NCBI RefSeq assembly: GCF_014205155.1
Contig: NZ_JACHMX010000001.1
Coordinates: 8,556,001 to 8,620,000, forward strand
Origin: Amycolatopsis umgeniensis
GTDB taxonomy: Bacteria > Actinomycetota > Actinomycetes > Mycobacteriales > Pseudonocardiaceae
Length of the DNA: 64,000 bases
Reading direction: 5' to 3'
A model generated the notes under the pieces. That model was given only the letters and a program-made list of their open reading frames with translations, searched no databases and was not told the origin of the DNA. A program made the translations under genes and the position numbers. Shown one piece after another: positions 48,172 through 63,409 of the stretch. Every line of letters starts with the position of its first letter. Within the stretch, counting starts at the first letter, position 1.

Positions 48172-49078
48172 TGCGGCGCAGCCAGGAGGCCCGGGCGGCG
48201 AGCGCGGCCCGGGTCACCTCGCTGTCCGGGGCGAACCGGTCGAAACCGTGGTACGCGCCCGCCCAGACGTGCAGTTCGGTGGGCACGCCCGCCCGCCAGA
48301 GGCGGCGCGCGTAGTCGACGTCCTCGTCACGGAAGATCTCGGCCGCGCCGACCTCGATGAAGGCGGGCGGGAGCCCGGTGAGATCGGTCGCGGTCGACGG
48401 GACCGCGTACGGCGAGGTCTGTCCCTTGAGGAGGGATCGCCAGCCGAACTCGTTGGCTTCCCGTCCCCACACCCCGCGTTCCGCGAATTCCCTGGTCGAG
48501 GCGGAGTCGTTGCGGCTGTCGATCATCGGGCACAGCAGGAGCTGCCCAGCCAGCTCCGGACCGCCGCGATCCCTGGCCAGCAAAGCGATCCCAGCGCTGA
48601 GCCCACCGCCCGCGCTGCCGCCGCCGACGATCAGTCGTGAGGGATCGAAGCCGAGTTCGGCCGCGTTCTCGGCCATCCAGGTCAGGCCCGCGTAGCAGTC
48701 TTCCAGCGGCGCCGGATGCGGATGCTCGGGAGCGAGCCGGTAGTCCACCGTCACCGCGACGAAGCCGAACTCCTCGACCAGCGCGACCATCCGCGGCAGG
48801 TCGGCGAAGCGGTTGTCCAGCACCATGCCGCCGCCGTGGATGTTGTAGAACCCCGGCGCGCCTTGGGCGTTCCGGGGTTTGACGACGGTGACTACCACCT
48901 CGGTGCCGGGTACCGCGCGGTCCTCCCAGACGAGATCGCGCTCGCCGATCGCCTCGGCACAGCTCAGGTTCATGTCGGCCATGGCCTGCCGCATGCCCGC
49001 CAGCGATTCGGCGCTCAACGGCGGCCCGGACGGGAGGCCGGCGAGGGCTTCGGCGAGTTCGGGATCGAAGGCCGTCAC
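48155..49078 (-). CDS. HSL-family alpha/beta hydrolase (acetyl-esterase-like)
   Basis: About 307 residues from GTG 49078, overlapping the upstream AKR stop by 4 bases. NIHGGGMVLDNR (HGGG oxyanion), nucleophile VGGGSAGGGLSAGIAL (GxSAG), Asp in EVGAAEIFRDED and His in GAYHGFDRF. HSL enzymes cleave short-chain esters, lactones or carbamates in the cytoplasm. Third gene of the minus-strand operon ADH-AKR-esterase controlled from the TCTAC-N4-GTAG site at 51155. Confidence 0.92.
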   Translation of the reverse strand: MTAFDPELAEALAGLPSGPPLSAESLAGMRQAMADMNLSCAEAIGERDLVWEDRAVPGTEVVVTVVKPRNAQGAPGFYNIHGGGMVLDNRFADLPRMVALVEEFGFVAVTVDYRLAPEHPHPAPLEDCYAGLTWMAENAAELGFDPSRLIVGGGSAGGGLSAGIALLARDRGGPELAGQLLLCPMIDSRNDSASTREFAERGVWGREANEFGWRSLLKGQTSPYAVPSTATDLTGLPPAFIEVGAAEIFRDEDVDYARRLWRAGVPTELHVWAGAYHGFDRFAPDSEVTRAALAARASWLRRTIGRA

Positions 49079-50034
49079 GGTCCCTCCGGATCGACGACGT
49101 CCCGGTCGGCCCAGTGCGGCTCGACGAGCCCGCGGAGTTCGTCCGCGCCCACGCGCTCGACGAGGTCGACGGCGCCCAGGTTGTCCTCGAGCTGCGCGGT
49201 GCTGGTCGCGCCGAAGAGCGTGGTCGTGTTGGCCGGGTGGGTGAGGGTGAAAGCCAGGCACAGCTGCGCCGGGGTCGCACCCAGTTCCGTCGCGATCTTC
49301 GCGAGTTGTGGGGCGGAGGTGGCGATACGCTCGCGGATGTCGCCGGGGTCGCGGCCGACCTGACGCGCACCGCTGTTCTTGCCCAGCAGGATCCCGCCCT
49401 CGAAGATGTCCGAGGACTGCAGCGTGACCCCGAGTTCGCCGAAGACCTGCTTGAAGGGTTCACCGTCCGGAATGGACCGCCGGGCGACGCTGTACTTCAG
49501 CTGCGCGATGGCGGGGCCGGGTACGTTCTCCGCCGCGGCGAAGTCGTGGAGCGCCTTGATCGTGCCGGCGGACCAGTTGTTCACCCCCCACTGGCGGATC
49601 AGCCCGGCCCGGCGGAGTTCGTCCAGATCGAGCACCAGCTGGTGCAGATCGGTGTCTTCGCGCCGGAGATCGCCCAGTACCACCAGATCCGCGTGCTCGA
49701 CCCCGGCACGGAACAGCGCGTTGTCCAGCTGGTCGCGGAGGTTGTGCTCGGGGTAGTCCTCCAGCCAGAGCTTGGCCGAAAGCAGGTAGTCCTCGCGCCG
49801 GAGCCCGGCCGCGCGGACCATCGCGGAGAACAGCACGTCGGTGTAGACCGGGGTGGCGCCGGGGAAACCGTAGACGCCGACGTCGAAGAGCGTGATGCCG
49901 GAATCGACGGCGGTGCGGACCAGGTTCACCGCCTCGCGGAAGTCCATCCGGTCGTAGGTGTGCCACGAGCCGAGCGAGAGCACGCCGGTGAGCGGGCCGT
50001 CGCGGCCGATCCGGCGCTGGGGGATGACGGGCAT
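49075..50034 (-). CDS. aldo/keto reductase family protein, tetrad His missing
   Basis: 319 residues, (beta/alpha)8 AKR fold: LGSWHTYDRMDFREAVNLVRTAVDSGITLFDVGVYG, QWGVNNWSAGTI, FEGGILLGKN, TTTLFGATSTAQLEDNLGAV. Asp51, Tyr55 (spacing 4 instead of 5) and Lys88 fit the tetrad, but the residue where His is expected (normally LL-H) is Gly121 in LVVLGDLRR. Close paralogue of the protein from 53279. Eight bases after the ADH stop. Activity and substrate unknown. Confidence 0.85.
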   Translation of the reverse strand: MPVIPQRRIGRDGPLTGVLSLGSWHTYDRMDFREAVNLVRTAVDSGITLFDVGVYGFPGATPVYTDVLFSAMVRAAGLRREDYLLSAKLWLEDYPEHNLRDQLDNALFRAGVEHADLVVLGDLRREDTDLHQLVLDLDELRRAGLIRQWGVNNWSAGTIKALHDFAAAENVPGPAIAQLKYSVARRSIPDGEPFKQVFGELGVTLQSSDIFEGGILLGKNSGARQVGRDPGDIRERIATSAPQLAKIATELGATPAQLCLAFTLTHPANTTTLFGATSTAQLEDNLGAVDLVERVGADELRGLVEPHWADRDVVDPEGP

Positions 50035-50042: not shown

Positions 50043-51146
50043 CTAGGGAAGGCGGGGGTCGATGACGGCTTTGAGTTCGCCGAGCCGCGACATCGACTCG
50101 ACGCTCTTGGACGCTTCGGAAAGGCCGACAGGCGCGCTGAACAGGTCGTCCCAGGGCAGCCGATCGGCGAACGTGCGGAAGAAGTCCACCGAGCGGTGGT
50201 AGTCGGCGATGTCGCCGTTGAGCGAGCCGACGACGGTGAGTTCCTTGCCCATCACCGTGCCCAGCGCCACGGGGGAGGGGGCGGGTCCGGTGGAACCGAC
50301 GATCGCGATCGTCCCGCGCTGCGCCGCGAAGGCCACGGCCTCCTCACCGATGGTGGGCCCGCCCGCGAAATCGAAGACGTGGTCGGCACCGCGGCCGCCG
50401 GTGAGTTCCTTGACCCGCTCGACGCGTTCTTCGGCGGTGCCGTCGACCGGGATCGTCGCTGTCGCCCCGAAGCGTTCGGCGGTCTCCAAACGGTCGGCGG
50501 GGCCACCGATGGTGATGACGTCGCCCGCGCCGGAGATCCGCGCGACGGCGGTGGCGAACACACCCAGCGCGCCGGCGCCCTGGACCACGACCGTCGCACC
50601 GGGACGGATCCCGCCGGAGCGTGAGACCGCCCGCAGCACGGTCTTGCCCGCGCAGCCCGACATCGAGGCCCAGGTGTCCTTGACGTCGTCCGGGAGGAGG
50701 AGTTTGGCCGCGCCGGGGGTCACGTAGCAGTACCGGACGAGACCGCCCGTGGCGTACGGGAAGACGTCGGAACGCTGGAGGAAGCCGTATCCGCGCTTCT
50801 CGCAGGCGACCGGTTCGCGCAGGATCGTGCAGCCGTAACACTTTCCGCAGGTCGATTCGGACCAGCCGATGCGGTCGCCCTCGGTGATCTCGCGGCCGAG
50901 GGTGTCGGTGGTATCCGGTCCGACGGCCACCACCTCGCCGACCATTTCGTGGCCCAGCACCATCGGGAGCATGCCGGGGAAGGTCATCTGGCCGGACCAG
51001 ATGTGCACGTCGGTGCCGCACAGGGTGGTGCAGGTGATCCGGACCAGCGCGGCGCCCGGTTCCGGCTCTTCCGGCAGCGGTAGTTCCCGCAAGGTGAGCG
51101 CGGAGCCGTGTTCGGTGAGCACCGCCGCTTCGGTTCTGTTGACCAT
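50043..51146 (-). CDS. zinc-dependent alcohol dehydrogenase
   Basis: 367 residues, MDR family. Catalytic zinc ligands in CGTDVHIWSG and GHEMVGEV; structural zinc Cys in CGKCYGCTILREPVACEK (four Cys); NAD fold VVVQGAGALGVFATAVARISGAG. Similar to the group often linked with phosphonate or threonine-type catabolism. First gene of the minus-strand operon; the TCTAC-N4-GTAG palindrome begins 9 bases before its ATG. Confidence 0.92.
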   Translation of the reverse strand: MVNRTEAAVLTEHGSALTLRELPLPEEPEPGAALVRITCTTLCGTDVHIWSGQMTFPGMLPMVLGHEMVGEVVAVGPDTTDTLGREITEGDRIGWSESTCGKCYGCTILREPVACEKRGYGFLQRSDVFPYATGGLVRYCYVTPGAAKLLLPDDVKDTWASMSGCAGKTVLRAVSRSGGIRPGATVVVQGAGALGVFATAVARISGAGDVITIGGPADRLETAERFGATATIPVDGTAEERVERVKELTGGRGADHVFDFAGGPTIGEEAVAFAAQRGTIAIVGSTGPAPSPVALGTVMGKELTVVGSLNGDIADYHRSVDFFRTFADRLPWDDLFSAPVGLSEASKSVESMSRLGELKAVIDPRLP

Positions 51147-51154
51147 CTTTTTAG

Positions 51155-51168
51155 TCTACAGTCGTAGG
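51155..51168. promoter_or_regulatory. TCTAC-N4-GTAG operator, site A
   Basis: TCTACAGTCGTAGG in the 50-base gap between the ADH start (51146) and the amidohydrolase start (51197). Same palindrome as sites B-E at 53228, 60548, 60621 and 63393; proposed target of the TetR protein encoded at 62781-63368. Confidence 0.7.
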
Positions 51169-51196
51169 AGAAAAAGTCCAGATCCTGGAGGAAACC

Positions 51197-52576
51197 ATGC
51201 CGTCGCAACGTATTCGTCCCGCATCACTCGTGGTTCGCGGCGGTCCCGTGCGCACTTTCGACCCGGCGGGCACCGTCGTGCGGGCGATGGCGGTCCGCGA
51301 CGACCGGATCGTCGCCCTCGGTGACGTCGCTCTGGACCACATCGGCCCGGAGACCGAGGTGATCGACCTCGCGGGCAGAACGGTTTTGCCCGGAATCAAC
51401 GACGCGCACCTCCACGCGACCTGGCTGGGCGCCCGGTGGCCGGACACGCTCATCGGTGGTGCGGGATTCACCGGGGGAGAAGAGAAAGCGGTGCGCGACG
51501 CGGCCGAACGGCGGGCCGCCATCCTCCGCGCGGGTGATCTGTGCGCGTCGCTCGGCATCACGAGTTACACCGAGCCCGGTTTGGGCCCCGGCGAGACGGG
51601 CTGCTTCGGCGCCGAGGTGCTCGAGGAATACGCGGCACTGGCCCGGGAAGGGCTTTTGCGCGCGAGGGTGACCGCGCTGCGGTTGTTCGGCCTGCTCGAC
51701 GGCGCGAGTTCGCTGGAAGACTTCGAACGCGGGCTGGCGACGCCGTCGCCGTCCGCGGATCCGGCGTGGCTCACCGTGCCCGGTGTGAAGATCTTCGCCG
51801 ACGGCATCCCGCCGATGCGGTCCGCGTGGACACATCATTGCTACGCCGACGGTTCCCACGGCACGTTGCTGGTCGACGGCGACGACGACCCGGGTCGTGC
51901 GGCCAACCTCGCCGCCATGATCCGTCTCGCCCACGACGCCGGAATGGTGGTCGCCGTGCACGCCACGGGGGATCGCAGCATCGAGGTGGCGCTCGGCTCG
52001 CTGCGCCGCGGCGACCACCTGGTGCACGGGGACCTGGTGACGCGGGATCAGCTGGCGCGGATGGCTTCCGCGGGTGTCGGCCTGACCACCCAGCCCGCGA
52101 TCGCGGTGGCGATGCGGGGGATGCTTTCGGCCGCTCTCGGCGCGGAGGTCGGTGCCCGCGCCTGGCCCTTGGCCGAGATGCTGGACTCCGGTGTCGCGCT
52201 GACCTTGAGCAGCGACGCACCGGTGGTCACCCCGGACTGGCGGGTGCACATCGCCGCGGCCGCCCGGATGCTGGACGCGTCCGAAGTGGACGCCGCGCTG
52301 ATGACCCGGTTGCTGCGCTGCTACACGGTGGCGGCCGCCGAGCAGGACGGGGCCGCGGAGTGGAAGGGTTCGCTGACCGTCGGCCGGGTCGCCGACTTCT
52401 GCGTGCTGGCGGCGAATCCGCTCGAGGTCGCGTTCGCGGACCTGCCGGACGTCGGTGTCGAACTCACCGTGTCCGGCGGCCGCGTCGTGTACTCAGGTGA
52501 GCAGTTGCCCGCCGTCGACCTGGAGGCTCACCCCGGTGAGATGGCCGGCGTCGGCGGAGGCGAGGAACAGGACTGA
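51197..52576 (+). CDS. YtcJ-like amidohydrolase
   Basis: 459 residues. Metal-dependent hydrolase of the amidohydrolase superfamily: LPGINDAHLHATWLG (HxH metal ligands), GVKIFADGIPP (candidate bridging Lys), VVAVHATGDRS, VHGDLV and SSDAPVVTPDW (His and Asp ligands); C-terminal KGSLTVGRVADFCVLAANPL. Cleaves an amide or cyclic amide in the cytoplasm. GGAGG lies 11 bases before the ATG. Its last 84 bases overlap the convergent SDR. Confidence 0.88.
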   Translation: MPSQRIRPASLVVRGGPVRTFDPAGTVVRAMAVRDDRIVALGDVALDHIGPETEVIDLAGRTVLPGINDAHLHATWLGARWPDTLIGGAGFTGGEEKAVRDAAERRAAILRAGDLCASLGITSYTEPGLGPGETGCFGAEVLEEYAALAREGLLRARVTALRLFGLLDGASSLEDFERGLATPSPSADPAWLTVPGVKIFADGIPPMRSAWTHHCYADGSHGTLLVDGDDDPGRAANLAAMIRLAHDAGMVVAVHATGDRSIEVALGSLRRGDHLVHGDLVTRDQLARMASAGVGLTTQPAIAVAMRGMLSAALGAEVGARAWPLAEMLDSGVALTLSSDAPVVTPDWRVHIAAAARMLDASEVDAALMTRLLRCYTVAAAEQDGAAEWKGSLTVGRVADFCVLAANPLEVAFADLPDVGVELTVSGGRVVYSGEQLPAVDLEAHPGEMAGVGGGEEQD

Positions 52577-53227
52577 CGGCACCACGTCGGCGACGGAAGC
52601 GATGGTTCCCAACGGAATCCTCGCTTCCCACGCCGCGCGGGCGGCGGTGTCCGAGGCGAATCCGGCGGTCATCGGCGTGAGCACCGGGCCGGGAGCGACG
52701 GCGTTGACCCGGATGCCGTGCGGCGCCAGTTCGAGCGCGGCCGAGCGGGTGAGCGCCTCGACGGCGGCTTTGGTGGCCTCGTAATGACCGAGCCCGGGCG
52801 TCGGCTGCCGGGCGCCGATGGAGGTGATGTTGACGATGGAGCCGCGAGTACCCGCCTCGACCATATGCGCCCCGACCGCACGGGTCATCAGGAAGGTGCC
52901 ACGGAAATTCACCCGCATGCACAGGTCGAAGACACCGATGTCCAGTCCCACCAACGGACCGCCGCCCCCGGCGAGGCCCGCGTTGTTGACCAGGACCTCC
53001 ACCGGGCCGAATCGGCCGGTGACGAGTGCCAGCGCCGCGTCCACCGATCCCGGGTCGGAGATGTCGAGTTCGACGTGCTCGGCACCGAGTTCGCCCGCGA
53101 GGTCGTGGGCGGCGCGCGCGTCGACGTCGGCGATGACCACGCGGTCGCCCGCGGACTGGAAGGCTTCGGCGACTCCGCGGCCGATGCCACTGGCACCGCC
53201 GGTCACCACTACGAGTCTCTTGTTCAT
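52493..53227 (-). CDS. SDR oxidoreductase
   Basis: 244 residues. VVTGGASGIGRGVAEAFQSAG, VLVNNAGLAGGG, NITSIGARQPTPGLGHYEATKAA (Ser, Tyr-x-x-x-Lys) and C-terminal GVSLQVDGGQ. Classical SDR. Its ATG directly abuts operator site B, so its transcript must have a very short or no leader. Divergent from the second aldo/keto reductase. Confidence 0.92.
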   Translation of the reverse strand: MNKRLVVVTGGASGIGRGVAEAFQSAGDRVVIADVDARAAHDLAGELGAEHVELDISDPGSVDAALALVTGRFGPVEVLVNNAGLAGGGGPLVGLDIGVFDLCMRVNFRGTFLMTRAVGAHMVEAGTRGSIVNITSIGARQPTPGLGHYEATKAAVEALTRSAALELAPHGIRVNAVAPGPVLTPMTAGFASDTAARAAWEARIPLGTIASVADVVPSVLFLASADAGHLTGVSLQVDGGQLLT

Positions 53228-53241
53228 TCTACGATCGTAGA
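53228..53241. promoter_or_regulatory. TCTAC-N4-GTAGA operator, site B
   Basis: TCTACGATCGTAGA, a perfect 14-bp palindrome between the SDR start (53227) and the AKR start (53279). It is the most symmetrical member of the set. Confidence 0.75.
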
Positions 53242-53278
53242 CTAAAACTTGTTTCCGTTGCCAGCGAAAGGAAAACTC

Positions 53279-54220
53279 GTGCACGAGAAGCAGAACGGGC
53301 TGGGCTTCGCCACTTCGGCGCTGGGCCTCGGCTCCTGGAACACGTGGGACCGCATGGACTTCGACGACGCGGTGCGCCTGCTCCGGCACGCGATCGACGC
53401 GGGGGTCACGCTTTTCGACGTGGCCCACTACAACATGGGACCGCATTCCGAGCGGTCACGCACGGATGTCCTTTTCGGTGAGGCGATCCGTGCCGCCGGG
53501 ATCCGGCGCGACGAGTATCAGCTGTGCGGAAAGCTGTGGCTCTGGGACTACCCGAACACCGGTTTCGCCGAGCAGCTCGCGACCTCGTTCGACCGCGTCG
53601 GCGTCGTCCACGCGGAAGCCGTCGTGGTCGGTGACTACTTCGGGGACCAGGACATCCCGCGGATCGTCACCGAGGTCGCCGAACAGATCCGTCTCGGCCG
53701 CTTCGACGTCTGGGGCGTGAACAACTGGCTCGCCGCGGATCTCGATCTCGCACTGGAGTTCGCTTCCCGCGAAGGACTCCCGGCGCCTTCTTTCGCCCAG
53801 CTGAAATACAGCGTCGCACGGCGTTCCATGGCCGAAGGACCGTTCTACGGCAAGCATTTCGAGGCCGGCCGGCTGACCTTGCAGGCGTCGGACATCTTCG
53901 AGGGTGGCGTGTTGCTCGGCAAGACTCCGGAGCGGAAGATCGGCGCTGATCCGGGCGGGATCCGGGAGTCCATCCGGGACGCCGCCTCGCGAGTCGCTTC
54001 CGTGGCCGCCGACTTCGGTGTGAGTACTTCGCAGCTGTCACTTGCGTTTTGTCTCGCGTACGGGCCGGTGGCGAACGTGCTGTTCGGGGTGAGCCGGATG
54101 GCGCAGCTGGAGGACAACCTGGGCGCCGTCCGGCTGGCTTCGGAGCACGGCGCGGAAGTGCGGGCGGCTCTCGAAGATCTCTGGCTGGACCGCTCGGTCG
54201 CCGCCGATGGGACGTTCTGA
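53279..54220 (+). CDS. second aldo/keto reductase family protein, tetrad His missing
   Basis: About 313 residues from GTG 53279 (AAAGGA 6 bases upstream). Paralogue of the 49075 gene: LGSWNTWDRMDFDDAVRLLRHAIDAGVTLFDVAHY, WGVNNWLAADL, QLKYSVARRSM, FEGGVLLGKTP, LFGVSRMAQLEDNLGAV. Asp47, Tyr51 and Lys85 are present; Gly118 (AVVVGDYFG) replaces the tetrad His. The two could form a heteromer. Under operator site B. Confidence 0.85.
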   Translation: MHEKQNGLGFATSALGLGSWNTWDRMDFDDAVRLLRHAIDAGVTLFDVAHYNMGPHSERSRTDVLFGEAIRAAGIRRDEYQLCGKLWLWDYPNTGFAEQLATSFDRVGVVHAEAVVVGDYFGDQDIPRIVTEVAEQIRLGRFDVWGVNNWLAADLDLALEFASREGLPAPSFAQLKYSVARRSMAEGPFYGKHFEAGRLTLQASDIFEGGVLLGKTPERKIGADPGGIRESIRDAASRVASVAADFGVSTSQLSLAFCLAYGPVANVLFGVSRMAQLEDNLGAVRLASEHGAEVRAALEDLWLDRSVAADGTF

Positions 54221-54250
54221 CCCTGCCGGGTGCGGCGTGGCCCGGGTGGC

Positions 54251-54307
54251 ACGTTGTGAAAGCCACTTTCGCAACCTTCGACGTTGCGAAAGTGGCTTTC
54301 ACAACGT
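54251..54307. terminator. 25-bp stem with GAAAGCCACTTTC core
   Basis: Arms 54251-54275 and 54283-54307 are perfect complements around CTTCGAC. It lies 31 bases after the AKR stop. Arm core TGAAAGCCACTTTCGCAAC belongs to the same family as 29276-29334. Confidence 0.6.
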
Positions 54308-54351
54308 CGGCGGAAACGGAGCGCGGCCCGGGTGCCCGGGCAAGTGAGCGA

Positions 54352-54376
54352 TGTCGCGAAAGCCACTTTCGCGACA
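54352..54376. repeat. short hairpin, GAAAGCCACTTTC family
   Basis: TGTCGCGAAAG (54352-54362) pairs with CTTTCGCGACA (54366-54376) around CCA. Its right end runs into the 13-base tandem repeats, whose unit begins with the same GCGACAC. Confidence 0.6.
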
Positions 54377-54422
54377 CCCCCGCGCGACACCCCCGCGCGA
54401 CACCCCCGCGCGACACCCCCGC
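54371..54422. repeat. four perfect 13-base tandem repeats
   Basis: GCGACACCCCCGC is repeated exactly four times (54371, 54384, 54397, 54410). The unit seems to derive from the end of the adjacent hairpin. Likely a slippage-prone minisatellite. Confidence 0.85.
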
Positions 54423-54467
54423 GCCTCGCAAGTCCGTGAAGGCCTCCTTCACTACCTTGAGGGTAGG

Positions 54468-54516
54468 GCTGAAGGGAGCTTTCCCCCCATGACATGCGGG
54501 GAAAGCTCCCTTCAGC
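54468..54516. terminator. 19-bp stem between convergent genes
   Basis: GCTGAAGGGAGCTTTCCCC (54468-54486) pairs with GGGGAAAGCTCCCTTCAGC (54498-54516) around an 11-base loop. It lies 12 bases beyond the stop of the hydrolase at 54528 (minus strand), so it can terminate the long ABC-transporter operon. Confidence 0.7.
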
Positions 54517-54527
54517 TCCGGGCCGCG

Positions 54528-55244
54528 TCAGGCGAGGAACTCCAGCACGGCGGCCTTGAACTCCGGGCTCCGCAGCGCCCCGCCGTGATCCCCGGGCACC
54601 CGCACCAGCGAAGCCCCCGGCACCAGGTCGACGAGAGTCTCGATGCCCTGACTGATCGGATCAGCGGTACCCGCCACGAACCGCGTCGGCACGGCGACCG
54701 CACCGGCGACCGGAGCGAACGGCTCGGCACGCAGGTCTTCGATGCACCGGGCGAGCGCGGCCGGATTGCGTCCCGGCGCGGTGATCATGTGCGCGATCAT
54801 CCCCGTCAGTGGATCCGCGGGTACTTTCCCGCCGTCGGCGTACGCCAGCGCCGCCGCGACGTCGACAGCGCCGAACGGCTCGAACGGGCTCACCCCCGCC
54901 AGCACCAGCCGCCGGACCGGCGCCTGGACCGGCAGTTCCCAGGCCAGCCGTGCGCCGAGCGAGTAGCCGACGACGTCCACTTCGGACAGACCCGAGACGA
55001 GCCGTGAGAGTTCGCCGGTGATCGCGGCGGCGCCGAGCGAGCCCGGGGGCACGGGGCTGGAGCCGTGACCGGGCAGGTCGGGCACGAGTACCTCGCGGCC
55101 CGCGGCGGTGAGCGCGGCGGGCCACCCCGTGGTGATCCAGTCGGTGTGCCCGTCGGAGGCGAAGCCGTGCACCAGCAGAACAGGCGGTCCCGAAACGGTT
55201 TCGGGGCCGAAACGGCGCACGGCCAGAGAAGTGGTGGCAGACAA
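54528..55244 (-). CDS. alpha/beta hydrolase
   Basis: About 238 residues from TTG 55244, with AAAGGA 5 bases upstream. VLLVHGFASDGHTDWI, VPDLPGHGSSP, nucleophile VVGYSLGARLAWE (GxSxG), Asp in FVAGTADPISQ and His in VPGDHGGAL. Compact MhpC-like hydrolase. Eleven bases after the DppC stop, so it is the last gene of the importer operon; it may act on the imported compound. Confidence 0.87.
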   Translation of the reverse strand: MSATTSLAVRRFGPETVSGPPVLLVHGFASDGHTDWITTGWPAALTAAGREVLVPDLPGHGSSPVPPGSLGAAAITGELSRLVSGLSEVDVVGYSLGARLAWELPVQAPVRRLVLAGVSPFEPFGAVDVAAALAYADGGKVPADPLTGMIAHMITAPGRNPAALARCIEDLRAEPFAPVAGAVAVPTRFVAGTADPISQGIETLVDLVPGASLVRVPGDHGGALRSPEFKAAVLEFLA

Positions 55245-55255
55245 CGGAATCCTTT

Positions 55256-56176
55256 CTAGCTGCCGGAGGGACGGCGGGTGCGCAGGCGTTGCATCTCGCT
55301 CAGCGTCCGCGCACGGGCGTCGACGGCGATCCGCAGCGACGAGCCGATGAGGTTCAACAGGAACACGCACACCATGATCGTCACGCCGGGCGCGATCACC
55401 AGCCAGGGCGCCTGCACCAGATACGACCGGCCTTCGGCGATCATGTTGCCCCAGGTCGGGGTCGGGGGAGCGATGCCGAGGCCGAGGAAGCTCATCGCGC
55501 CGTCGACCAGCATCGCCGCCGCCGAGAGGATCACGACCTGCACCAGCGCGAGCGGCAGCACGTTCGGGAACACGTGGACGACGAGGATCTTCCCCTTGCT
55601 CATCCCCGAGACCCGCGCCGCGCCGATGTAGGCGCGGCCGGCGATGCCCAGCACCCGGCTGCGGATCACGCGGGCGGTGAACGGAGTGAAGATCACCGTC
55701 AGCGCGATCAGTTCGGTCCAGATGCTCGCTCCGAGCGAGATCGCCAGAGCCATCGCGAGGATGATCGCCGGGAACGACATCCAGGCGTCCATCACCCGCA
55801 TCAGCACCGCGTCCGCCGCGCGGAAGAACCCGCTGATCAGCCCGATCACCAGACCGGTGAAGGCCGCGCACAGGGTGATCAGGGCGGACAGCCCGAGCGA
55901 CGCCCGTCCGCCGGAGACCAGCCGGGCGAGCACGTCACGGCCGAACGAGTCGGTGCCGAGGAGATGCGCGGACGACGGCGGCAGCAGCCGGTTGACCGGG
56001 TCTGTCGCGCTGACGCTCGGCAGGAAGAACGGCAGCACGATCACGGTCAGGACGATCAACGCCAGCAGCGCGGTGGTGATGACCAGCATCCGGTTGCGCC
56101 GGAACAGTTTGGCCGCGCGACCGGACGAAGGCGTCTCGCGCACCGACGAGGTCTTTTCCACCAGAGCCACGCTCAC
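55256..56176 (-). CDS. peptide-type ABC importer permease (DppC-like)
   Basis: 306 residues. N-terminal OppC segment (LFRRNRMLVITTALLALIVLTVIVLPFF), LLGTDSFGRDVLARLVSGGRASL and the permease EAA-type loop ARVSGMSKGKILVVHVFPNVL. About six helices. Pairs with the DppB-like permease, whose stop it overlaps by 4 bases. Confidence 0.93.
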   Translation of the reverse strand: MSVALVEKTSSVRETPSSGRAAKLFRRNRMLVITTALLALIVLTVIVLPFFLPSVSATDPVNRLLPPSSAHLLGTDSFGRDVLARLVSGGRASLGLSALITLCAAFTGLVIGLISGFFRAADAVLMRVMDAWMSFPAIILAMALAISLGASIWTELIALTVIFTPFTARVIRSRVLGIAGRAYIGAARVSGMSKGKILVVHVFPNVLPLALVQVVILSAAAMLVDGAMSFLGLGIAPPTPTWGNMIAEGRSYLVQAPWLVIAPGVTIMVCVFLLNLIGSSLRIAVDARARTLSEMQRLRTRRPSGS

Positions 56177-57117
56177 GAGACACGCACCTTCGGGTCGAGC
56201 AGTGCGTACGACAGGTCCACCAGCAGGTTGACCAGTACGAACAGCACCGCGACGAACAGCGTCACACCCTGGATCAGCGGGAAGTCGCGGGTGGATACCG
56301 CGCCCATCAGCAGATGGCCGAGCCCGGGCACGACGAAGATGGATTCGATGATCACGATCCCGCCGACCAGCATGGCGAAGTTGCTGCCCAGCTGGGTGAT
56401 CAACGGCATCAGCGCGTTCGGTAGGACGTGCTTGGTCATCACCTGCCGCTCGGAGAGCCCCTTGACCCGCGCGGTGCGCAGATACGCCAGCGGCAGCTCA
56501 CCGAGCAGGCTTTCGCGCAGGGTGAGCACGAACAACGCGGTCTGCCCGATGACCAGCACGGTCAGCGGCAGCACCAGCGCCGGCACCGCGGTGGCCGGGT
56601 CGGTGAACAGGTTTTCGTAACCGCTGGAAGGGAACCAGCGCAGCGTCACCGAGAACACCAGCACGAGCATCAGCGAGATCCAGAAGTCCGGCATCGCCAT
56701 ACCGAGCGCGGAGAGCCGGTCCAGCGCCCGCGCCACCGGATTGCGCGGCGAAACCGCCTGCCAGGACGTGATCGCGACCGAGAGGAAGAAGCTGATCACC
56801 GTGGACAGAACGGCCAGGGTGAGCGTCGGCAGGATGTGGTCGGCGACGACGCCGAGCACCGGAGCGTGATAGGTGATCGACGTCCCGAAGTCGCCGTGCA
56901 GCACGTTCCCGGCCCAGCTGAGGTACTGCTCCCACAGTGGTCCGTTCAGCCCCATGCTCTCCCGCAAGGCGTCCACATCGGACGGTCGCGCGGTCGGGCC
57001 GAGGATGGCCTGCGCCGGGTCGCCGGGGATCAGCCGGATGACGAAGAACATCATCGTCCCGACGATCACCAGGATGATGACCAGATCGCGCAGCCTGCGC
57101 AGCAGCAGACCGGTCAT
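56173..57117 (-). CDS. peptide-type ABC importer permease (DppB-like)
   Basis: 314 residues. LRDLVIILVIVGTMMFFVIRLIPGDPAQAILGP is the standard DppB start; WAGNVLHGDFGTSI, ARVKGLSERQVMTKHVLPNALMP (EAA loop) and GLGHLLMGAVSTRDFPLIQGV follow. ATG 57117 overlaps the end of the binding-protein gene by 4 bases (ATGA). Confidence 0.94.
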   Translation of the reverse strand: MTGLLLRRLRDLVIILVIVGTMMFFVIRLIPGDPAQAILGPTARPSDVDALRESMGLNGPLWEQYLSWAGNVLHGDFGTSITYHAPVLGVVADHILPTLTLAVLSTVISFFLSVAITSWQAVSPRNPVARALDRLSALGMAMPDFWISLMLVLVFSVTLRWFPSSGYENLFTDPATAVPALVLPLTVLVIGQTALFVLTLRESLLGELPLAYLRTARVKGLSERQVMTKHVLPNALMPLITQLGSNFAMLVGGIVIIESIFVVPGLGHLLMGAVSTRDFPLIQGVTLFVAVLFVLVNLLVDLSYALLDPKVRVS

Positions 57118-58694
57118 GATGCCAGCCAGGTGTTCCAGAAGACGCGGTAGAAGTCGCCGTAGCCCTTGAGCTTGGGGGAGTAGGCCGCGTACAGCTTGGA
57201 CTGGCTCAAGGTGATCACCGACAGCTGCTTCCAGGTGAACGCCTGGAGCTTGTCGACCACCGCTTTCGCCTGCTCCGGCGTCGTCGAGGCGTTGAACTCC
57301 GCCATGAGCCCGTCCAGTTCGGGCGAGGACGAACCGTTCAGCGTGCCGAGGGTGAGCGCGGGCATCTGGGCGGGCGAGGTCAGCGCCGAGTCGAAGAACA
57401 GCGTGGTGATGTCCCAGCCGCCCGGTTCCTTGGTCAGCGTGCCGAGCATGGTGGCGAAGTCGAAGGTGTCGATCTTGGTGTTGATGCCGATCTTCGACAG
57501 GCTGTCCTGGATCAGCACGGCCCACTTGCCGAACTCCGGATACGAGTTCGTGGTGACGATGCGGATCGTCGCGCCCGCGGTGATGCCGACCTCGGCCAGC
57601 AGCTGCTTGGCCTTCTCCGGGTCGTGCTTCTTGTAGACCTCTTCACCTGCGGTGGAATAGAACTGCTTGTTGTCCGGCGAGGCGAAGGCGCCGGTCTCGA
57701 GGGTGAGGTCCTTGCTGCCGCCGGTGGCCGCGTTGATCGCTGGCTTGTCCAGCAACAGGTTCAGCGCCTCGCGGGCACGGGGGTCGGCGAACTTCGAACC
57801 GGTGTTGAAGTTGGGGATCACGACGTTGTCGTTGCCGCCGGGGAGGTTGTGCACGACCACGGCCGGGTTGTTGCGCAGCGTCTCGTACTGGTCGTTGGTG
57901 GGCATGATGTGGTCCCACTGCCCGGTCTGCAGGCCGTTGATCAGCGCGTCCTGATCGGAGACGACCTTGTAGGTCACGGTGTCCAGGTACGCGTGCTTGG
58001 CGCCCGCCTGCCCGCCCCAGTCCTCTTCGGACCGGGACTTGTAGCCGGTGTACCGCTCCAGCACCAGTTCACGGCCGATGTCCCAGCTCTTCAGCTTGTA
58101 CGGCCCGGTCCCGATAGCCTTGTCCTGGGCGAAACCGGTCGGCGCGACACCGGTGAGGTTCTTCGCTTCGTAGATCTCCGTGCCCGCGCCGGCGAGCTCG
58201 TTGATCAGCGGGTAGCGGGGCTGCTTGAGCTTGATGGTCACCGTCGCCGGGTCGGTCGGCGTGATCGCGTCGATGTCCGGGGTGACCAGCTGGCCGGTGC
58301 GGTGGACCTGCTGCCAGCGCTTGAGGCTCGCGACGACGTCCTCGGACGTCAGCGGATTGCCGTCGTGGAAGGTGACGCCCTGGCGCAGCTTGAAGGCGTA
58401 GGTGAGCCTGTCCGGGCTGGTGGTGAAGTCCTCGACCAGCATGGGCCGGGCGGTGAAGCCGCGGTCCACCTCGAACAGCTTCTCGTACATCATGTTGCCG
58501 ATATGCGCGGTGACCTGGCCGGGATTCGCGACCATGTCGAGCGACTGCGGATCGGTGGGCACGGCCACGTTGAGGTTGCCGCCGGGCTTCGGGGGCCCGT
58601 CCGCGGCGCCACCGCCGGCCTGCCCTCCCATACACGAGCTGAGCAGCAGGACGGTCGCCAAGCCGAGGGCGGCCGAGGTCAGGGTTCGTCTCAT
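57114..58694 (-). CDS. peptide-type ABC substrate-binding lipoprotein
   Basis: 526 residues. Lipobox LSSC at about 18-21, then a class C/cluster 5 solute-binding fold: GGNLNVAVPTDPQSLDMVANPGQVTAHIGNMMYEKLFEVD, YAFKLRQGVTFHDGNPLTSEDVVASLKRW, KAIGTGPYKLKSW, FADPRAREALNLLLDKPAI. Related proteins bind peptides, nickel chelates, opines or glycosides. Overlaps the ATPase stop by 4 bases. Confidence 0.93.
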   Translation of the reverse strand: MRRTLTSAALGLATVLLLSSCMGGQAGGGAADGPPKPGGNLNVAVPTDPQSLDMVANPGQVTAHIGNMMYEKLFEVDRGFTARPMLVEDFTTSPDRLTYAFKLRQGVTFHDGNPLTSEDVVASLKRWQQVHRTGQLVTPDIDAITPTDPATVTIKLKQPRYPLINELAGAGTEIYEAKNLTGVAPTGFAQDKAIGTGPYKLKSWDIGRELVLERYTGYKSRSEEDWGGQAGAKHAYLDTVTYKVVSDQDALINGLQTGQWDHIMPTNDQYETLRNNPAVVVHNLPGGNDNVVIPNFNTGSKFADPRAREALNLLLDKPAINAATGGSKDLTLETGAFASPDNKQFYSTAGEEVYKKHDPEKAKQLLAEVGITAGATIRIVTTNSYPEFGKWAVLIQDSLSKIGINTKIDTFDFATMLGTLTKEPGGWDITTLFFDSALTSPAQMPALTLGTLNGSSSPELDGLMAEFNASTTPEQAKAVVDKLQAFTWKQLSVITLSQSKLYAAYSPKLKGYGDFYRVFWNTWLAS

Positions 58695-60433
58695 GGGTTC
58701 CGCACTCCAATTTCGGGGTTCGCCGCGAGGAGCCGGCGGGTGTAGTCGTGCTCGGCGCGGAGCCGGATCTCGTCCGGTTCGCCGATTTCGATCAGTTCGC
58801 CCCGGTACATGACGCCGACGCGGTCGGCGACCGAGAGCACCAGGCTGAGGTTGTGCGTGATGAACAGGAAGCTGAGCGCACGCGTGCGCCGCAGTTCGAG
58901 CAGCAGGTTCATCACCTGGCCCTGCACCGAGACGTCGAGCGCGGAGGTGGGCTCGTCGGCGACGATGAGGTCGGGTTCGGCGGCGATCGCGCGGGCGATC
59001 GAGACGCGTTGCCGCTGTCCGCCGGAGAGCTGCGAGGGCAGTTTCTTCGCGGTGTCCGAGGGGAGACCGACCTCGTCGATCAGTTCGGTCACCCGGCGGT
59101 CGAGTTCGGCACCGCGGAGGCCGGTGAGTTCCCGCAGCGGTTCGGCGATGATCCGGGCGGCGGTGTGCCGGGGATCGAGGGAGCTCTGCGGGTCCTGGAA
59201 GATGAGCTGGGCGTGGCGGCGGAACGCGCGTTCGTCGCCTTCGAGCCCGGATGGCGTGCAGCGGTGCGCACCGAAGGCGATGGAGCCCGACGTCGGTGGC
59301 TCCAGCGCGCTGACCAGGCGGCCGAGCGTGGTCTTGCCCGAACCGGATTCCCCGACCAGGCCGAAGAACTCGCCGGGCGCGATCTCCAGCGAGACGTTCT
59401 TGACCGCGTGCACCTCGGGTTCGCGGTTCAGGGAGAACCGGCCGCGGCGACCGTACACTTTGGACACCGAGTCGATGACGAGCGCGGTGCCTTCGCCCGC
59501 GTTGTCCGCCTTGGCGCGGTTCAGCGTCCTGGTCTCGGTGGCGATCGCCGATTCGCCGTTCATCGCGGCTTCGAGCAGCGCTTCGGAGATGGTGGGGAAG
59601 CCGTCGCGCCTGCTCACCCCGAGCTTCGGGACGCAGTCGAGCAGCGCCTTGGTGTAGGGGTGCTTCGGCGCGTGCAGAATGTCCTCTTTGGACCCGAGCT
59701 CGACCAGTTCGCCGCGGTACATCACCGCGATCCGGTCCGCCACCTGCGCGGCCACGCCCATGTCGTGCGTGATGAAGACGCACGCGGTGCCGTGGTCGCG
59801 GCGGACGCGGTCGAACAGGGTGAGGATCTCCGCCTGCGTGGTCACGTCCAAGGCCGTGGTCGGCTCGTCGGCGATGAGCAGGCTCGGGTCCGCCATCAAG
59901 GCCAGCGCGATCATCACGCGCTGCTGCATCCCACCCGACATCTGATGCGGGTACAGGGAAAGCACTCGATCGGTGTCGGTGAGCCCGACCTCTTTCAGCA
60001 GGCCGCGTGCCTTCGCTTCGGCCTCGCGATGCAACGGCGTGCCCTTGCGCGCGGCTTGGCGCGGCAAGGAACCGGGCTTGCGATAGGCCTCGATCAGCTG
60101 CTTGCCGACTCGTTGACTGGGATTGAGCGAATCCAAGGCCTCCTGGAAGATCATCCCGATCCGCGGGCCGCGGTAAGAGCGCATCTCGTCGGCGGAGAGG
60201 CGGGTGAGATCCACGCCGTCGACGGTGATCTCACCGCGGGTGAACACCGGCGCGACGAACTCCAGTAACCGGATGATCGACAAGGCCGTCACCGTTTTAC
60301 CGCTGCCGGATTCGCCGACCACGCAGAGTGTCCGGCCTTGTTCGAGGTCGAACGACAGTTCGCGGACCAGTTCGCGTTCGGTTTCGTCGGCGATCACGCC
60401 GACGGTCAGTTCTCGTAATTCGAGCAGGGTCAT
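58691..60433 (-). CDS. fused ABC importer ATPase (DppD-DppF type)
   Basis: 580 residues with two complete ABC domains: first Walker A GESGSGKTV, signature MSGGMQQRVMIALAL, Walker B LLIADEPTTAL; second Walker A GESGSGKTT, signature LSGGQRQRVSIARAI, LIVADEPTSALDV. The oligopeptide-type C-terminal motif occurs after each. This replaces the usual two genes. ATG 60433 with AAAGGGG upstream. First gene of the importer operon, preceded by operator sites C and C'. Confidence 0.94.
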   Translation of the reverse strand: MTLLELRELTVGVIADETERELVRELSFDLEQGRTLCVVGESGSGKTVTALSIIRLLEFVAPVFTRGEITVDGVDLTRLSADEMRSYRGPRIGMIFQEALDSLNPSQRVGKQLIEAYRKPGSLPRQAARKGTPLHREAEAKARGLLKEVGLTDTDRVLSLYPHQMSGGMQQRVMIALALMADPSLLIADEPTTALDVTTQAEILTLFDRVRRDHGTACVFITHDMGVAAQVADRIAVMYRGELVELGSKEDILHAPKHPYTKALLDCVPKLGVSRRDGFPTISEALLEAAMNGESAIATETRTLNRAKADNAGEGTALVIDSVSKVYGRRGRFSLNREPEVHAVKNVSLEIAPGEFFGLVGESGSGKTTLGRLVSALEPPTSGSIAFGAHRCTPSGLEGDERAFRRHAQLIFQDPQSSLDPRHTAARIIAEPLRELTGLRGAELDRRVTELIDEVGLPSDTAKKLPSQLSGGQRQRVSIARAIAAEPDLIVADEPTSALDVSVQGQVMNLLLELRRTRALSFLFITHNLSLVLSVADRVGVMYRGELIEIGEPDEIRLRAEHDYTRRLLAANPEIGVRNP

Positions 60434-60502
60434 GAATCCCCTTTCCCGTGCCCGCCCGAAGCGGACCGCACTGCCGGGGAACGGGCCTCCGGCGGGGGTA
60501 GT

Positions 60503-60516
60503 TCTACGCATGTTGA
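60503..60516. promoter_or_regulatory. TCTAC-N4-GTTGA, degenerate operator C'
   Basis: TCTACGCATGTTGA differs from the palindrome by one base. On the minus strand TTGACA (60538-60533) lies so that this site would overlap the -10 of a promoter for the importer operon. Confidence 0.45.
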
Positions 60517-60547
60517 CACTGGGCGAGTGCGCTGTCAATGGGTATAT

Positions 60548-60561
60548 TCTACGAATGTAGG
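60548..60561. promoter_or_regulatory. TCTAC-N4-GTAG operator, site C
   Basis: TCTACGAATGTAGG in the 234-base gap between the divergent importer operon (60433) and methyltransferase gene (60668). TATATT directly precedes and overlaps it, in an AT-rich patch. Confidence 0.65.
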
Positions 60562-60620
60562 AAGTTGATATCCGGCAGGTTTTGCCTGGCAGTGGGCGAA
60601 AACTTGCACTGGATTCTTTT

Positions 60621-60636
60621 GTCTACGTCTGTAGAC
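60621..60636. promoter_or_regulatory. GTCTAC-N4-GTAGAC operator, site D
   Basis: GTCTACGTCTGTAGAC: perfect 6-bp arms around GTCT, 31 bases before the GTG of the methyltransferase-like gene at 60668. Best extended copy of the set. Confidence 0.7.
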
Positions 60637-60667
60637 TCTCGGCGGAAACGAGCTAAGGAGGGCACCC

Positions 60668-61654
60668 GTGAGCGGGTCGACCAAGACTGCCGGTCCCGAG
60701 CGGATCGTGGACATCGCCGTGGGGTACATGGCGGCCAAGCAACTCTTCGCGGCGAGCCGGATCGGCCTGTTCACCGCGCTCGCCTCCGGGCCGCTGACGG
60801 TGGCGGAGCTGGCCGGAAAGACCGGCAAACCGGAGAAGATCGCGCGCATCCTCGGTGACGCCATGTCATCACTCGGTCTGTTGTCCCGTGTGGACGGACG
60901 CTACGAACTGGCCGCCGACGCGGCGGAATACCTCGGCGGCGGAGAACTCGATCTGGCGCCGTTCCTGACTTTCCTGGACGCGATCAGCTACCCGCATTGG
61001 TTGCAGTTCGGTCACACGGCCGACAGCGGCGAGCCGGGCAAACTGGAGATGGACGACGCGCGCTGGGGCACGTTCATGTCCGGAGTGATGACGTATAACG
61101 CCCTACACGCGAAGATGTTGGCCGGCGCGTTCGATTTCGGCTCCCATCGAAAGCTTCTCGACCTCGGCGGGCTCTCGAGCGCGTTCGCGGTCGAAGCCAT
61201 GAAGGCCAACGAAGAACTGCACACGACGTTCGTCTTCGACCCGGGCTTCACCGAATCGGTCACCACCGCGGCGGCCTTGGCGGGGCTCGCCGACCGTGCG
61301 ACGGTCGTCGGCGCGGAGACGCCCACTGCACGGCCGGAAGGCGAGTTCGACCTGGTGATGGTCAACCACGTCGTCCACCGCTTCGAAGCGAAGCAGAACG
61401 CGGAGATCCTGCGTAACGCCCGCGCGGCCGCGGCCCCGGGGGCGACGTTGCTGCTCCTCGACTTCTTCCTCGACGACGACGCGAACCAGCGGCCGATCGA
61501 CGCGTTGCACGCGGGGGAGTACCTGGTGATCGACGGGACGGTCGTCTATCCGGAGGCCGAGGTCCGGGAATGGCTGACCGGGGCGGGCTGGCGGGTCACC
61601 GACCGGCTGGCGCTGCCGGGCAGTCCGCGGGTGCTCGTCGCGGAAGCGGTGTGA
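60668..61654 (+). CDS. O-methyltransferase-family protein with altered SAM loop
   Basis: 328 residues, GTG start with AAGGAGG 6 bases upstream. N-terminal dimerisation/winged-helix part (YMAAKQLFAASRIGLFTALASGPLTVAELAGKTGKPEKIARILGDAMSSLGLL) as in hydroxyneurosporene/acetylserotonin-type O-methyltransferases. The Rossmann part is present, but the Gly-rich SAM motif is LLDLGGLSSAF instead of the usual D-x-G-G-G-x-G, and the catalytic-loop region reads HVVHRFEAKQN. Activity uncertain. Overlaps the next gene by 4 bases. Confidence 0.8.
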   Translation: MSGSTKTAGPERIVDIAVGYMAAKQLFAASRIGLFTALASGPLTVAELAGKTGKPEKIARILGDAMSSLGLLSRVDGRYELAADAAEYLGGGELDLAPFLTFLDAISYPHWLQFGHTADSGEPGKLEMDDARWGTFMSGVMTYNALHAKMLAGAFDFGSHRKLLDLGGLSSAFAVEAMKANEELHTTFVFDPGFTESVTTAAALAGLADRATVVGAETPTARPEGEFDLVMVNHVVHRFEAKQNAEILRNARAAAAPGATLLLLDFFLDDDANQRPIDALHAGEYLVIDGTVVYPEAEVREWLTGAGWRVTDRLALPGSPRVLVAEAV

Positions 61655-62586
61655 CCGTGACCCTCGATCCCGCGGTCAAGGAGCTGCTCGCCCGCAGTGC
61701 CCCGCCGGAGGCCCCGGCCGGACCCTTGACGGCCGCCGAACTGCGAGCCGCCTTCGCTGCTTCGTGGCGACGCCCCGACTCGGTCGAAGAGGTCGCCTCG
61801 GTCACCGACCATGTCCTGCCTTCAGGTGTCCGGGTGCGGCTTTACCTGCCTGATGCCGCTGGGGCGGTCCCGGCGTTCGTGTGGATCCACGGTGGCGGGT
61901 GGACGATCGGCTCGATCGACGAGAACGAGGTCGCGTCGCGCGCGGTGTGCAACGCGGCGAAGGTCGCCGTCGTGGCGGTGGACTACCGGCTCGCTCCCGA
62001 GCATCCGTACCCGGCGGCCCCGGACGACTGCTACGCCGTCGTCGAATGGCTCGCCGCGGGCGGTGCCGGGGACGCGGTGGACCCGGGGCGGATCGCGATC
62101 GGCGGGGAGAGCGCCGGCGGCAATCTGTCCACGGTGGTCTCGATGATGTCCCGCGATCGCGGCGGTCCGCCGCTGGCCGCGCAGGTGCTGATCTGCCCGG
62201 TCTACGGGCACCCGGACGACGGATTCCGGTCCTACACGGACTTCGCCGAGGGGTTCGGCATGACGGCCGGGGCGATGCGGTTCTTCTTCGATCAGTACGT
62301 GTCGGATCCGGCGCAGCTGAACGATCCGTACCTGCTGCCGCTGCGGGCCTCGGACCTGACGGGGCTCCCGCCCGCGTTGGTGCTGACCGCCGAGTACGAC
62401 GTCCTGCGGGATGAAGGGGAGGAGTTCGCGCGGCGCCTCACCGACGCGGGGGCGCGAGTGGAGATGACGCGCTATTCGGGGCAGATCCACGGTTTCTACG
62501 GGCTGTACACGGATCTTCCCGCTTCGCCGCGCTCGCACGCGCATGTGGCGAGCTTCCTGACCCGGGTGTTCGACTCGCACGTTTAG
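61651..62586 (+). CDS. HSL-family alpha/beta hydrolase
   Basis: About 311 residues from GTG 61651 (GTGA overlap with the methyltransferase-like gene). VWIHGGGWTIGS (HGGG), VAVDYRLAPEHPYPAAPDDCYAV, nucleophile IGGESAGGNLSTVVSMM (GESAG), Asp in LTAEYDVLRDEGEE, His in QIHGFYG: all hallmarks intact. Cytoplasmic esterase; second HSL enzyme of the proposed regulon. TAG stop is supplied by a TTTAGTCCTCT repeat. Confidence 0.93.
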   Translation: MTVTLDPAVKELLARSAPPEAPAGPLTAAELRAAFAASWRRPDSVEEVASVTDHVLPSGVRVRLYLPDAAGAVPAFVWIHGGGWTIGSIDENEVASRAVCNAAKVAVVAVDYRLAPEHPYPAAPDDCYAVVEWLAAGGAGDAVDPGRIAIGGESAGGNLSTVVSMMSRDRGGPPLAAQVLICPVYGHPDDGFRSYTDFAEGFGMTAGAMRFFFDQYVSDPAQLNDPYLLPLRASDLTGLPPALVLTAEYDVLRDEGEEFARRLTDAGARVEMTRYSGQIHGFYGLYTDLPASPRSHAHVASFLTRVFDSHV

Positions 62587-62600
62587 TCCTCTGGATGCGT
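62578..62600. repeat. TTTAGTCCTCTGGATGCG element at a stop codon
   Basis: GTTTAGTCCTCTGGATGCG from 62581; its TAG is the stop of the HSL hydrolase. Compare 29224-29247. Confidence 0.6.
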
Positions 62601-62612
62601 TCCCTTCCTCGC

Positions 62613-62648
62613 GATTAGGGCCGGAACTCGCGAGTTCCGGCCCTAATC
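62613..62648. terminator. 36-base loop-free palindrome
   Basis: GATTAGGGCCGGAACTCG followed directly by its reverse complement. It lies 27 bases after the HSL stop. Partial copies (AATCACGCGAGT) follow at 62645 and 62667. Confidence 0.6.
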
Positions 62649-62701
62649 ACGCGAGTTCCGTCCTGAATCACGCGAGTCGCGCCTGCGAGGTCGGCGACCG
62701 C

Positions 62702-62725
62702 CGCGTTCAGTCCTCTGGATGCGGG
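62702..62725. repeat. TTCAGTCCTCTGGATGCG element
   Basis: Third forward copy of the TCCTCTGGATGCG repeat, between convergent genes; a reverse copy lies in the hairpin just beyond. Confidence 0.6.
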
Positions 62726-62732
62726 TTGTTCG

Positions 62733-62780
62733 CGCTACGCACTACCGCATTTAGAGGACGAAATGCGGTAGTGCGTAGCG
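62733..62780. terminator. 19-bp stem directly after the TetR gene
   Basis: CGCTACGCACTACCGCATT (62733-62751) pairs perfectly with AATGCGGTAGTGCGTAGCG (62762-62780). It abuts the TetR stop at 62781 and contains a reversed TCCTCTAAATGCGG element in and beside the loop. Probable terminator of the TetR transcript. Confidence 0.7.
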
Positions 62781-63368
62781 TCAGGGGCGGGTGAGGCGCG
62801 CGAAGAACGACTCGAGGTGCTGTTGCTGCAAAGCGATCGTCGAGAATTCCCCGGCGACCAGGCTCATCACGTTCGCCCCGGCGTTGATCAGGACGACCTC
62901 GTCGACCAGCTGCTCGTCGGGGGTTTCGGTGACGATGTCGCCGTCCTCCCGGCCCTCGGTGAGGTACCGGTGCAGCAGGCCCCGCCACGAGCGGATGTGC
63001 TCGAGGTACTTGTCCTGCAGTTTCGGGTTCGTCAGCGAGAGCTGCCAGAAGGTGAGTAGGACACGCCCCGCGGCGATGCGGTCCTCGTCGATCGGCATCG
63101 ACGAGACGCACAGCTCGCGGAGCGCGACCAGCCCGCGCAGCTCGTCCAGCTCCACGTACTCGCGCATCATGCCGAGCGCGCGCTCGTAGGTGGCCTGGAT
63201 GATGTCTTCCTTGCTGGGGAAGTACAGCTTGAGCGCACCGTTGGCGAAGCCGGCCGCGGCCGCGATCTCGCGCATGGTGGCGGCCTCGATCCCGCCCTGG
63301 GTGATCAAATCCCAGGTGACGTCGACGATATGACTTCGCCGTTCGTCGTGGTCGATGATCTTCGGCAT
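62781..63368 (-). CDS. TetR-family regulator (BetI-like), proposed regulon controller
   Basis: About 195 residues from ATG 63368 (GGGAGG upstream). HTH HIVDVTWDLITQGGIEAATMREIAAAAGFANGALKLYFPSKEDIIQATYERAL; BetI-type C-terminal domain ending EFSTIALQQQHLESFFARL. A TCTAC-N4-GTAG site lies 25 bases before its ATG, as expected for autorepression, and the same site stands before four other transcription units to the left. The ligand is unknown. Confidence 0.92.
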   Translation of the reverse strand: MPKIIDHDERRSHIVDVTWDLITQGGIEAATMREIAAAAGFANGALKLYFPSKEDIIQATYERALGMMREYVELDELRGLVALRELCVSSMPIDEDRIAAGRVLLTFWQLSLTNPKLQDKYLEHIRSWRGLLHRYLTEGREDGDIVTETPDEQLVDEVVLINAGANVMSLVAGEFSTIALQQQHLESFFARLTRP

Positions 63369-63392
63369 CGGCAGACCTCCCACACTGGTTCT

Positions 63393-63406
63393 TCTACCAG
63401 TGTAGG
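63393..63406. promoter_or_regulatory. TCTAC-N4-GTAG operator, site E
   Basis: TCTACCAGTGTAGG, 25 bases before the TetR start and 4 bases from the end of the amidohydrolase gene. The arms extend to CTTCTAC/GTAGGAG with one mismatch. Confidence 0.7.
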
Positions 63407-63409
63407 AGA

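Follow-up and report, generated by a model that had tools for sequence, protein, structure and literature searches.

A short palindrome, TCTAC-N4-GTAG(A/G), recurs in the control regions of a gene island within a 64-kb window of the Amycolatopsis umgeniensis genome (contig NZ_JACHMX010000001.1, positions 8,556,001 to 8,620,000; hereafter "the window", whose coordinates are used unless genome positions are indicated). The island includes the gene of a TetR-family regulator, tetR, at 62781-63368. The sites are conserved, are concentrated in this gene set and travel with the island TetR. Since the same arrangement of sites and genes recurs in distantly related actinobacteria, the palindrome is very probably the switch of this neighbouring TetR-type repressor, and sequence comparison strongly supports a real local TetR regulon. 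We consider it highly likely that TetR is an autoregulating local repressor, which would bind TCTAC-N4-GTAG(A/G) as a dimer, silence a pathway of uptake and conversion, and be released by a compound of that pathway.

Predicted operator sites and their conservation in Amycolatopsis

Using TCTAC-N4-GTAG(A/G) as the site and CTAC-N4-GTAG as its core, pattern matching confirmed the exact copies that the original prediction had reported at 51155, 53228, 60548 and 63393, as well as its one-mismatch copy at 60503. The further palindrome it had placed at 60621 is present and exact, with its true start one base later, at 60622 (Table 1). As had also been stated, the sites fill all divergent control regions between 51.1 and 60.7 kb, with one site each at adh/amh1 and sdr/akr2 and three (one imperfect) at dppDF/omt. 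Another one lies in the tetR leader, 24 bp 5' of the start codon. The remark that the other control regions of the window have no site proved right at up to one mismatch: the sole additional match to TCTACNNNNGTAGR, at 61102, is coding, within omt. Between 63407 and 70797 no site was found within two mismatches, and amh2 and moaF are thus without an operator close by.

The window contains five exact copies of the core, compared to a mean of 0.05 in 100 shuffles (largest 1), and 13 strand-wise matches to TCTACNNNNGTAGR at up to one mismatch, compared to a shuffle mean of 1.21 (largest 6). A genome-wide count, which the original prediction had proposed, gave 16 exact cores in the whole genome (9,225,930 bases, single contig), of which five fall within the 12 kb that contain the island sites, and 88 exact copies of a control pattern consisting of the same string reversed. 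When up to one mismatch to TCTAC-N4-GTAGA was allowed, 19 places were found, six of them in the island, and 33 for the control pattern; outside the island, only those at 885415 and 5776854 of the genome have the form TCTAC-N4-GTAG(A/G). Two of the other 11 exact core copies form a tandem site at 5.777 Mb, between a flavin adenine dinucleotide (FAD) monooxygenase gene and a divergent TetR gene. One lies in the leader of a LysR gene, one 5' of a TetR gene and one 5' of a PadR gene, and the last six overlap called reading frames or fall, by a simple frame call, in places without a frame.

Conservation was analyzed across 80 genomes of the genus, with thresholds of E<=1e-30 for TetR and E<=1e-60 for amh1. 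TetR matches were detected in 47 of them: in 36, counting the query, at 77-100% identity, and in 11 only at 42-48%. Without the query, the close orthologs make up 35 loci (L048-L082; L083-L087 are not counted with them); some of these stretches stop short of the whole island, and counts per control region therefore include only loci where the flanking genes lie in the examined stretch. The tetR leader site (TCTACCAGTGTAGG) is identical in 35/35 loci, including L082, whose stretch lacks most of the island and where only gntR, gmc, tetR, amh2 and moaF were matched. At dppDF/omt, the arms of the two main sites (60548, 60622) are unchanged in 33/33 loci each and the copy at 60503 is identical in 31/33; the omt-side site shows 10 different spacers around ten invariant arm bases. 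The sdr/akr2 site was found by script in 30/31 loci, and the 31st (L065) has the site and a mis-assigned akr2. All 31 loci with both adh and amh1 carry the site between them at up to one mismatch, 17 as in the window and 14 with GTGGA. In an alignment of 34 rows, the operator arms are 0.99-1.00 identical, compared to 0.84 for the spacers and 0.84 for other intergenic columns. The spacing of the dppDF/omt operators is likewise conserved (74 or 75 bp in 34/34; 44-46 bp in 33/34 measured), and they are arranged around a conserved block.

Rearranged islands, other genera and imperfect operators

Twelve genomes of the genus have a diverged TetR copy (38-48%), and eight of them were examined as loci. 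Seven rearranged islands, whose TetR is 42-47% identical, differ in gene order and have their sites before the same genes: at up to one mismatch, these were found before omt, at tetR/abh and next to akr2 on the sdr side in 7/7 each, and at adh/amh1 in 6/6 whose stretch included that region. Five diverged-TetR loci were also inspected in differently cut stretches, and an exact site lies near tetR/abh in four.

Beyond the genus, we considered the 80 top-ranking stretches out of 192 that were confirmed and excluded 16 from Amycolatopsis, leaving 64 loci with a TetR 43-84% identical to that of the window. At up to one mismatch, a site is present in 109/110 of their divergent island control regions (omt/abh 31/31, akr2/sdr 32/33, omt/dppDF 10/10, amh1/adh 26/26, akr2/amh1 10/10). 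Island control DNA (35,920 bp with the tetR leaders) holds 175 such sites, compared to 23 in the other 1,164,855 bp. Within two mismatches, 53/64 tetR leaders have a site, where shuffles predict 1.2. Islands with one or more such sites occur, among others, in Amycolatopsis, Nonomuraea, Actinokineospora, Saccharothrix, Leifsonia, Agromyces and Leucobacter. Importer matches adjoin omt in the Nonomuraea loci; most Leucobacter and Leifsonia loci show no importer matches beside omt, and those of Actinokineospora and Saccharothrix comprise only tetR, akr2, amh1 and sometimes est2. Near the island of one Leucobacter locus (L174:567-8156) are genes for a sulfatase, a protein resembling the formylglycine-generating enzyme, an NMT1-like binding protein and another TetR.

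Some promoters keep an imperfect operator of their own. Outside Amycolatopsis, the amh1/adh site reads TCAAC-N4-GTAGA in 26/26 cases, with the broken arm facing amh1, and the deviant arm is likewise on the amh1 side in the island type of the window (GTAGG or GTGGA) and in 6/6 rearranged islands. The akr2/sdr site outside Amycolatopsis is TCTAC-N4-GTATA in 30/32 cases, with the altered arm facing sdr. Six of the rearranged islands show the same GTATA change, again facing sdr; in the seventh, L192, the changed arm is on the far side from akr2, at the end of the stretch. In the island type of the window, the sdr/akr2 site is perfect. The altered akr2/sdr arm creates a TATAAT in 28/32 cases. Overall, 56/148 one-mismatch sites gain matches to TATAAT, compared to 947/5250 possible single changes; this gain comes almost wholly from akr2/sdr (30) and omt/abh (23), the other classes being level or lower. 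These patterns suggest graded repression or a compromise with a -10 box, and for the latter idea the outcome is mixed. A broader interpretation is offered tentatively, as we regard it as possible and rather doubtful: this may be an actinobacterial uptake-and-conversion island, not found under any name in our searches, with its own TetR/operator class, whose divergent promoters keep their own imperfect operators across genera, the broken half-site being on the side of the same gene (TCAAC towards amh1, GTATA towards sdr). Operator mismatches might then encode a conserved order of release, for sdr as a compromise with the TATAAT box.

The regulator and alternative explanations

The tetR product carries an N-terminal helix-turn-helix domain (TetR_N, 50.2 bits; cut-off 24), and a C-terminal TetR-type ligand-binding domain is weakly recognized (TetR_C_6 28.8 and TetR_C_13 28.6 bits; cut-off 27). 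Thirteen NCBIfam families of named regulators, including ScbR, BetI, KstR, MftR and FadR, match the protein, all below their curated cut-offs. The best of them, the ScbR family NF041196 of the same superfamily, reaches 51.8 bits, far under its cut-off of 150 bits, and TetR is not assigned to it. The nearest solved structure by sequence is the TetR-family protein PDB 2nx4 (102.8 bits over TetR residues 1-191), described only as a transcriptional regulator, with no operator or ligand given. A further inverted repeat in the tetR leader, ACACTGGT-N6-ACCAGTGT at 63382-63403, overlaps the operator and adjoins the ribosome-binding region; 34/35 genus loci have an ACTGGTAGA..ACCAGT form of it, the exception being L082.

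Systems of the TetR/tetO type, in which a TetR-family protein represses its own gene together with nearby, often divergent genes, are a known kind. The island resembles them in the TetR_N DNA-binding domain, the position of the gene beside its putative targets and the palindrome in its own leader, and differs in that a single regulator gene accompanies four types of promoter region, with six sites in total. Unusual here are the breadth of conservation and the promoter-specific imperfect operators. We infer the island TetR as the binder, repression as the effect and a pathway compound as the ligand. A TetR dimer would bind the palindromes in the short control regions of the divergent gene pairs and would repress its own gene via the leader site. 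Bound TetR would silence the ATP-binding cassette (ABC) importer, the hydrolases, dehydrogenases and reductases, the amidohydrolase and the methyltransferase-like protein, until its release by a pathway compound.

The original prediction had assigned to this TetR the alcohol dehydrogenase, amidohydrolase/reductase, importer and methyltransferase-esterase gene sets. These are indeed the ones bearing sites, and their control is supported by footprinting in the genus, the other genera, shared presence and absence, and the rearranged islands; the palindrome itself is not private to the island TetR. The shared presence has to be read with care: TetR and amh1 occur in the same 47/80 genus genomes, which, for neighbouring genes, is evidence of joint inheritance more than of regulation. 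Together, the 47 TetR-positive genomes contain 156 perfect TCTAC-N4-GTAGA sites (3.3 each).

Several observations weigh against the proposed regulon. The 33 TetR-negative genomes still hold 52 perfect sites (1.6 each). One of the five diverged-TetR loci (L086, TetR 44%) has no exact site near tetR/abh, and 11/64 tetR leaders outside the genus have none within two mismatches. As the loci are mutually related, counts across them are not independent events. In a cruder, permuted-letter control with 48 palindromic half-sites over the 80 whole loci, coding DNA included, CTAC is the commonest (104), with CGAT (76) and ATCG (73) close behind. A scan of 51100-63450 for consensus sigma-70 promoters found none, with 0.8 expected. 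A perfect site, TCTACGTTAGTAGA, lies directly 5' of a LysR gene at 885415-885428 of the genome (L104:5416-5429) and is identical in 16/80 genus genomes: 15 have the island TetR, and in the remaining one (G075) this full-type site persists without it. The LysR leader is a possible distant target of the island TetR. Finally, the distant TetR at 5.777 Mb, which has a TetR_C_31 domain, possesses tandem sites with the same arms at its own gene, and for this reason the palindrome cannot be exclusive to the island regulator.

This last system raises the question of whether another regulator, for example this TetR encoded next to the FAD monooxygenase, uses the palindromes as its operators, the local tetR gene being just one target. 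The two TCTACACTTGTAGA-type sites in its divergent region (5776854-5776886; L103:9855-9888) are 19 bp apart, that at 5776854 having ACTAC-N4-GTAGA at 5776873 as its partner, and at least seven other genus genomes have pairs at a distance of 18 bp. As in the island, same-arm sites separate a TetR gene from a divergent enzyme gene; unlike in the island, two copies 19 bp apart occupy a single control region. The distant protein, however, is only remotely similar to the local TetR (22% identity over 116 residues), and the island sites stay with the local TetR in rearranged islands and in other genera and occur in its leader, which makes another binder improbable. Binding by the local TetR with activation of some promoters (e.g. 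dppDF), or with both activation and repression, would fit the three dppDF/omt operators at near-constant spacing around a conserved block. We regard this as no less improbable, given that most TetR-family proteins studied are repressors.

Scarcely credible, in our view, is a role of the palindromes as promoter elements common to these genes instead of repressor operators. A -10-like TANNNT does overlap the site in all examined cases at akr2/sdr (32), amh1/adh (26) and tetR (25), and the TATAAT created by the altered akr2/sdr arm points in the same direction. However, the overlap is no more frequent than expected at omt/dppDF (12/23, 13.6 expected) and is near expectation at akr2/amh1 (12/19, 10.8 expected). 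Moreover, a promoter element need not be palindromic around a free spacer, nor should it track one gene set. Repression by the local TetR remains the explanation that we favour.

Genes of the island and outlook

Table 1. Predicted operators and genes of the island (window coordinates unless a locus is given)
Feature	Position	Strand	Description	Basis
Operator adh/amh1	51155..51168		TCTACAGTCGTAGG, exact	pattern match
Operator sdr/akr2	53228..53241		TCTACGATCGTAGA, exact	pattern match
Operator copy, dppDF side	60503..60516		TCTACGCATGTTGA, one mismatch	pattern match
Operator dppDF/omt	60548..60561		TCTACGAATGTAGG, exact	pattern match
Operator dppDF/omt, omt side	60622..60635		TCTACGTCTGTAGA, exact	pattern match
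Operator in tetR leader	63393..63406		TCTACCAGTGTAGG, exact	pattern match
est1	48155..49078	-	alpha/beta hydrolase (Abhydrolase_3), end of adh operon	Pfam
akr1	49075..50034	-	aldo/keto reductase	Pfam
adh	50043..51146	-	zinc alcohol dehydrogenase	Pfam
amh1	51197..52576	+	amidohydrolase	Pfam
sdr	52493..53227	-	short-chain dehydrogenase	Pfam
akr2	53279..54220	+	aldo/keto reductase (start codon not fixed)	Pfam
abh	54528..55247	-	alpha/beta hydrolase (start codon not fixed)	Pfam
dppC, dppB, dppA, dppDF	55256..60433	-	oligopeptide/nickel-type ABC importer	NCBIfam and Pfam for dppC, dppA, dppDF
omt	60668..61654	+	O-methyltransferase-like	Pfam
est2	61657..62586	+	alpha/beta hydrolase, LipP1-like, below NCBIfam cut-off	
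tetR	62781..63368	-	TetR-family regulator, 195 aa	TetR_N PF00440
amh2, moaF	63410-64000 and L016:1411-4107, adjoining tetR	-	Amidohydro_3; MoaF-domain	

From low to high coordinates, the gene order is est1 akr1 adh (-), amh1 (+), sdr (-), akr2 (+), abh dppC dppB dppA dppDF (-), omt est2 (+) and tetR amh2 moaF (-). The gene dppB was named by its position and annotation and is conserved in the genus loci. In this genome, abh and the importer genes are covered by sites only via the dppDF promoter; other lineages have a separate site for abh. The pair amh2 and moaF, which has no operator of this type, is kept beside tetR in most genus loci.

The enzyme set comprises a zinc alcohol dehydrogenase, two aldo/keto reductases, a short-chain dehydrogenase, an amidohydrolase (the second one, amh2, has no site), three alpha/beta hydrolases and an O-methyltransferase-like protein, alongside the dipeptide/nickel-type importer. 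Pfam, NCBIfam and PDB searches of the pathway proteins returned broad enzyme classes only and indicated no substrate. A single hint of an aromatic compound comes from one locus (L132), where an intradiol-dioxygenase-like gene lies 3' of amh1. Within the amh1 match, the search reports one TAG in 10 genus genomes (e.g. G066, G017, G070), where the gene may just be slightly shorter. The intergenic region between akr2 and abh (54250-54510) contains, by eye, a tandem GCGACACCCCC and several inverted repeats of the AAAGCCACTTTCGCAAC type.

The strings CTACNNNNGTAG, CTAC-N4-GTAG, CTACN4GTAG and TCTACNNNNGTAGA gave no text match in the literature searched; subscription journals and bioRxiv lay outside its scope, and an earlier description may exist. 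Among the matches listed, no title concerned the island TetR or the island.

Taken together, what began as a string match can now be tested as a regulon whose genes are listed. A pathway compound is probably what the repressor senses, and screening TetR for ligands would therefore be a direct route to the substrate. In addition, the operator variants from about a hundred loci provide a natural data set on the bases common to repressor and promoter.

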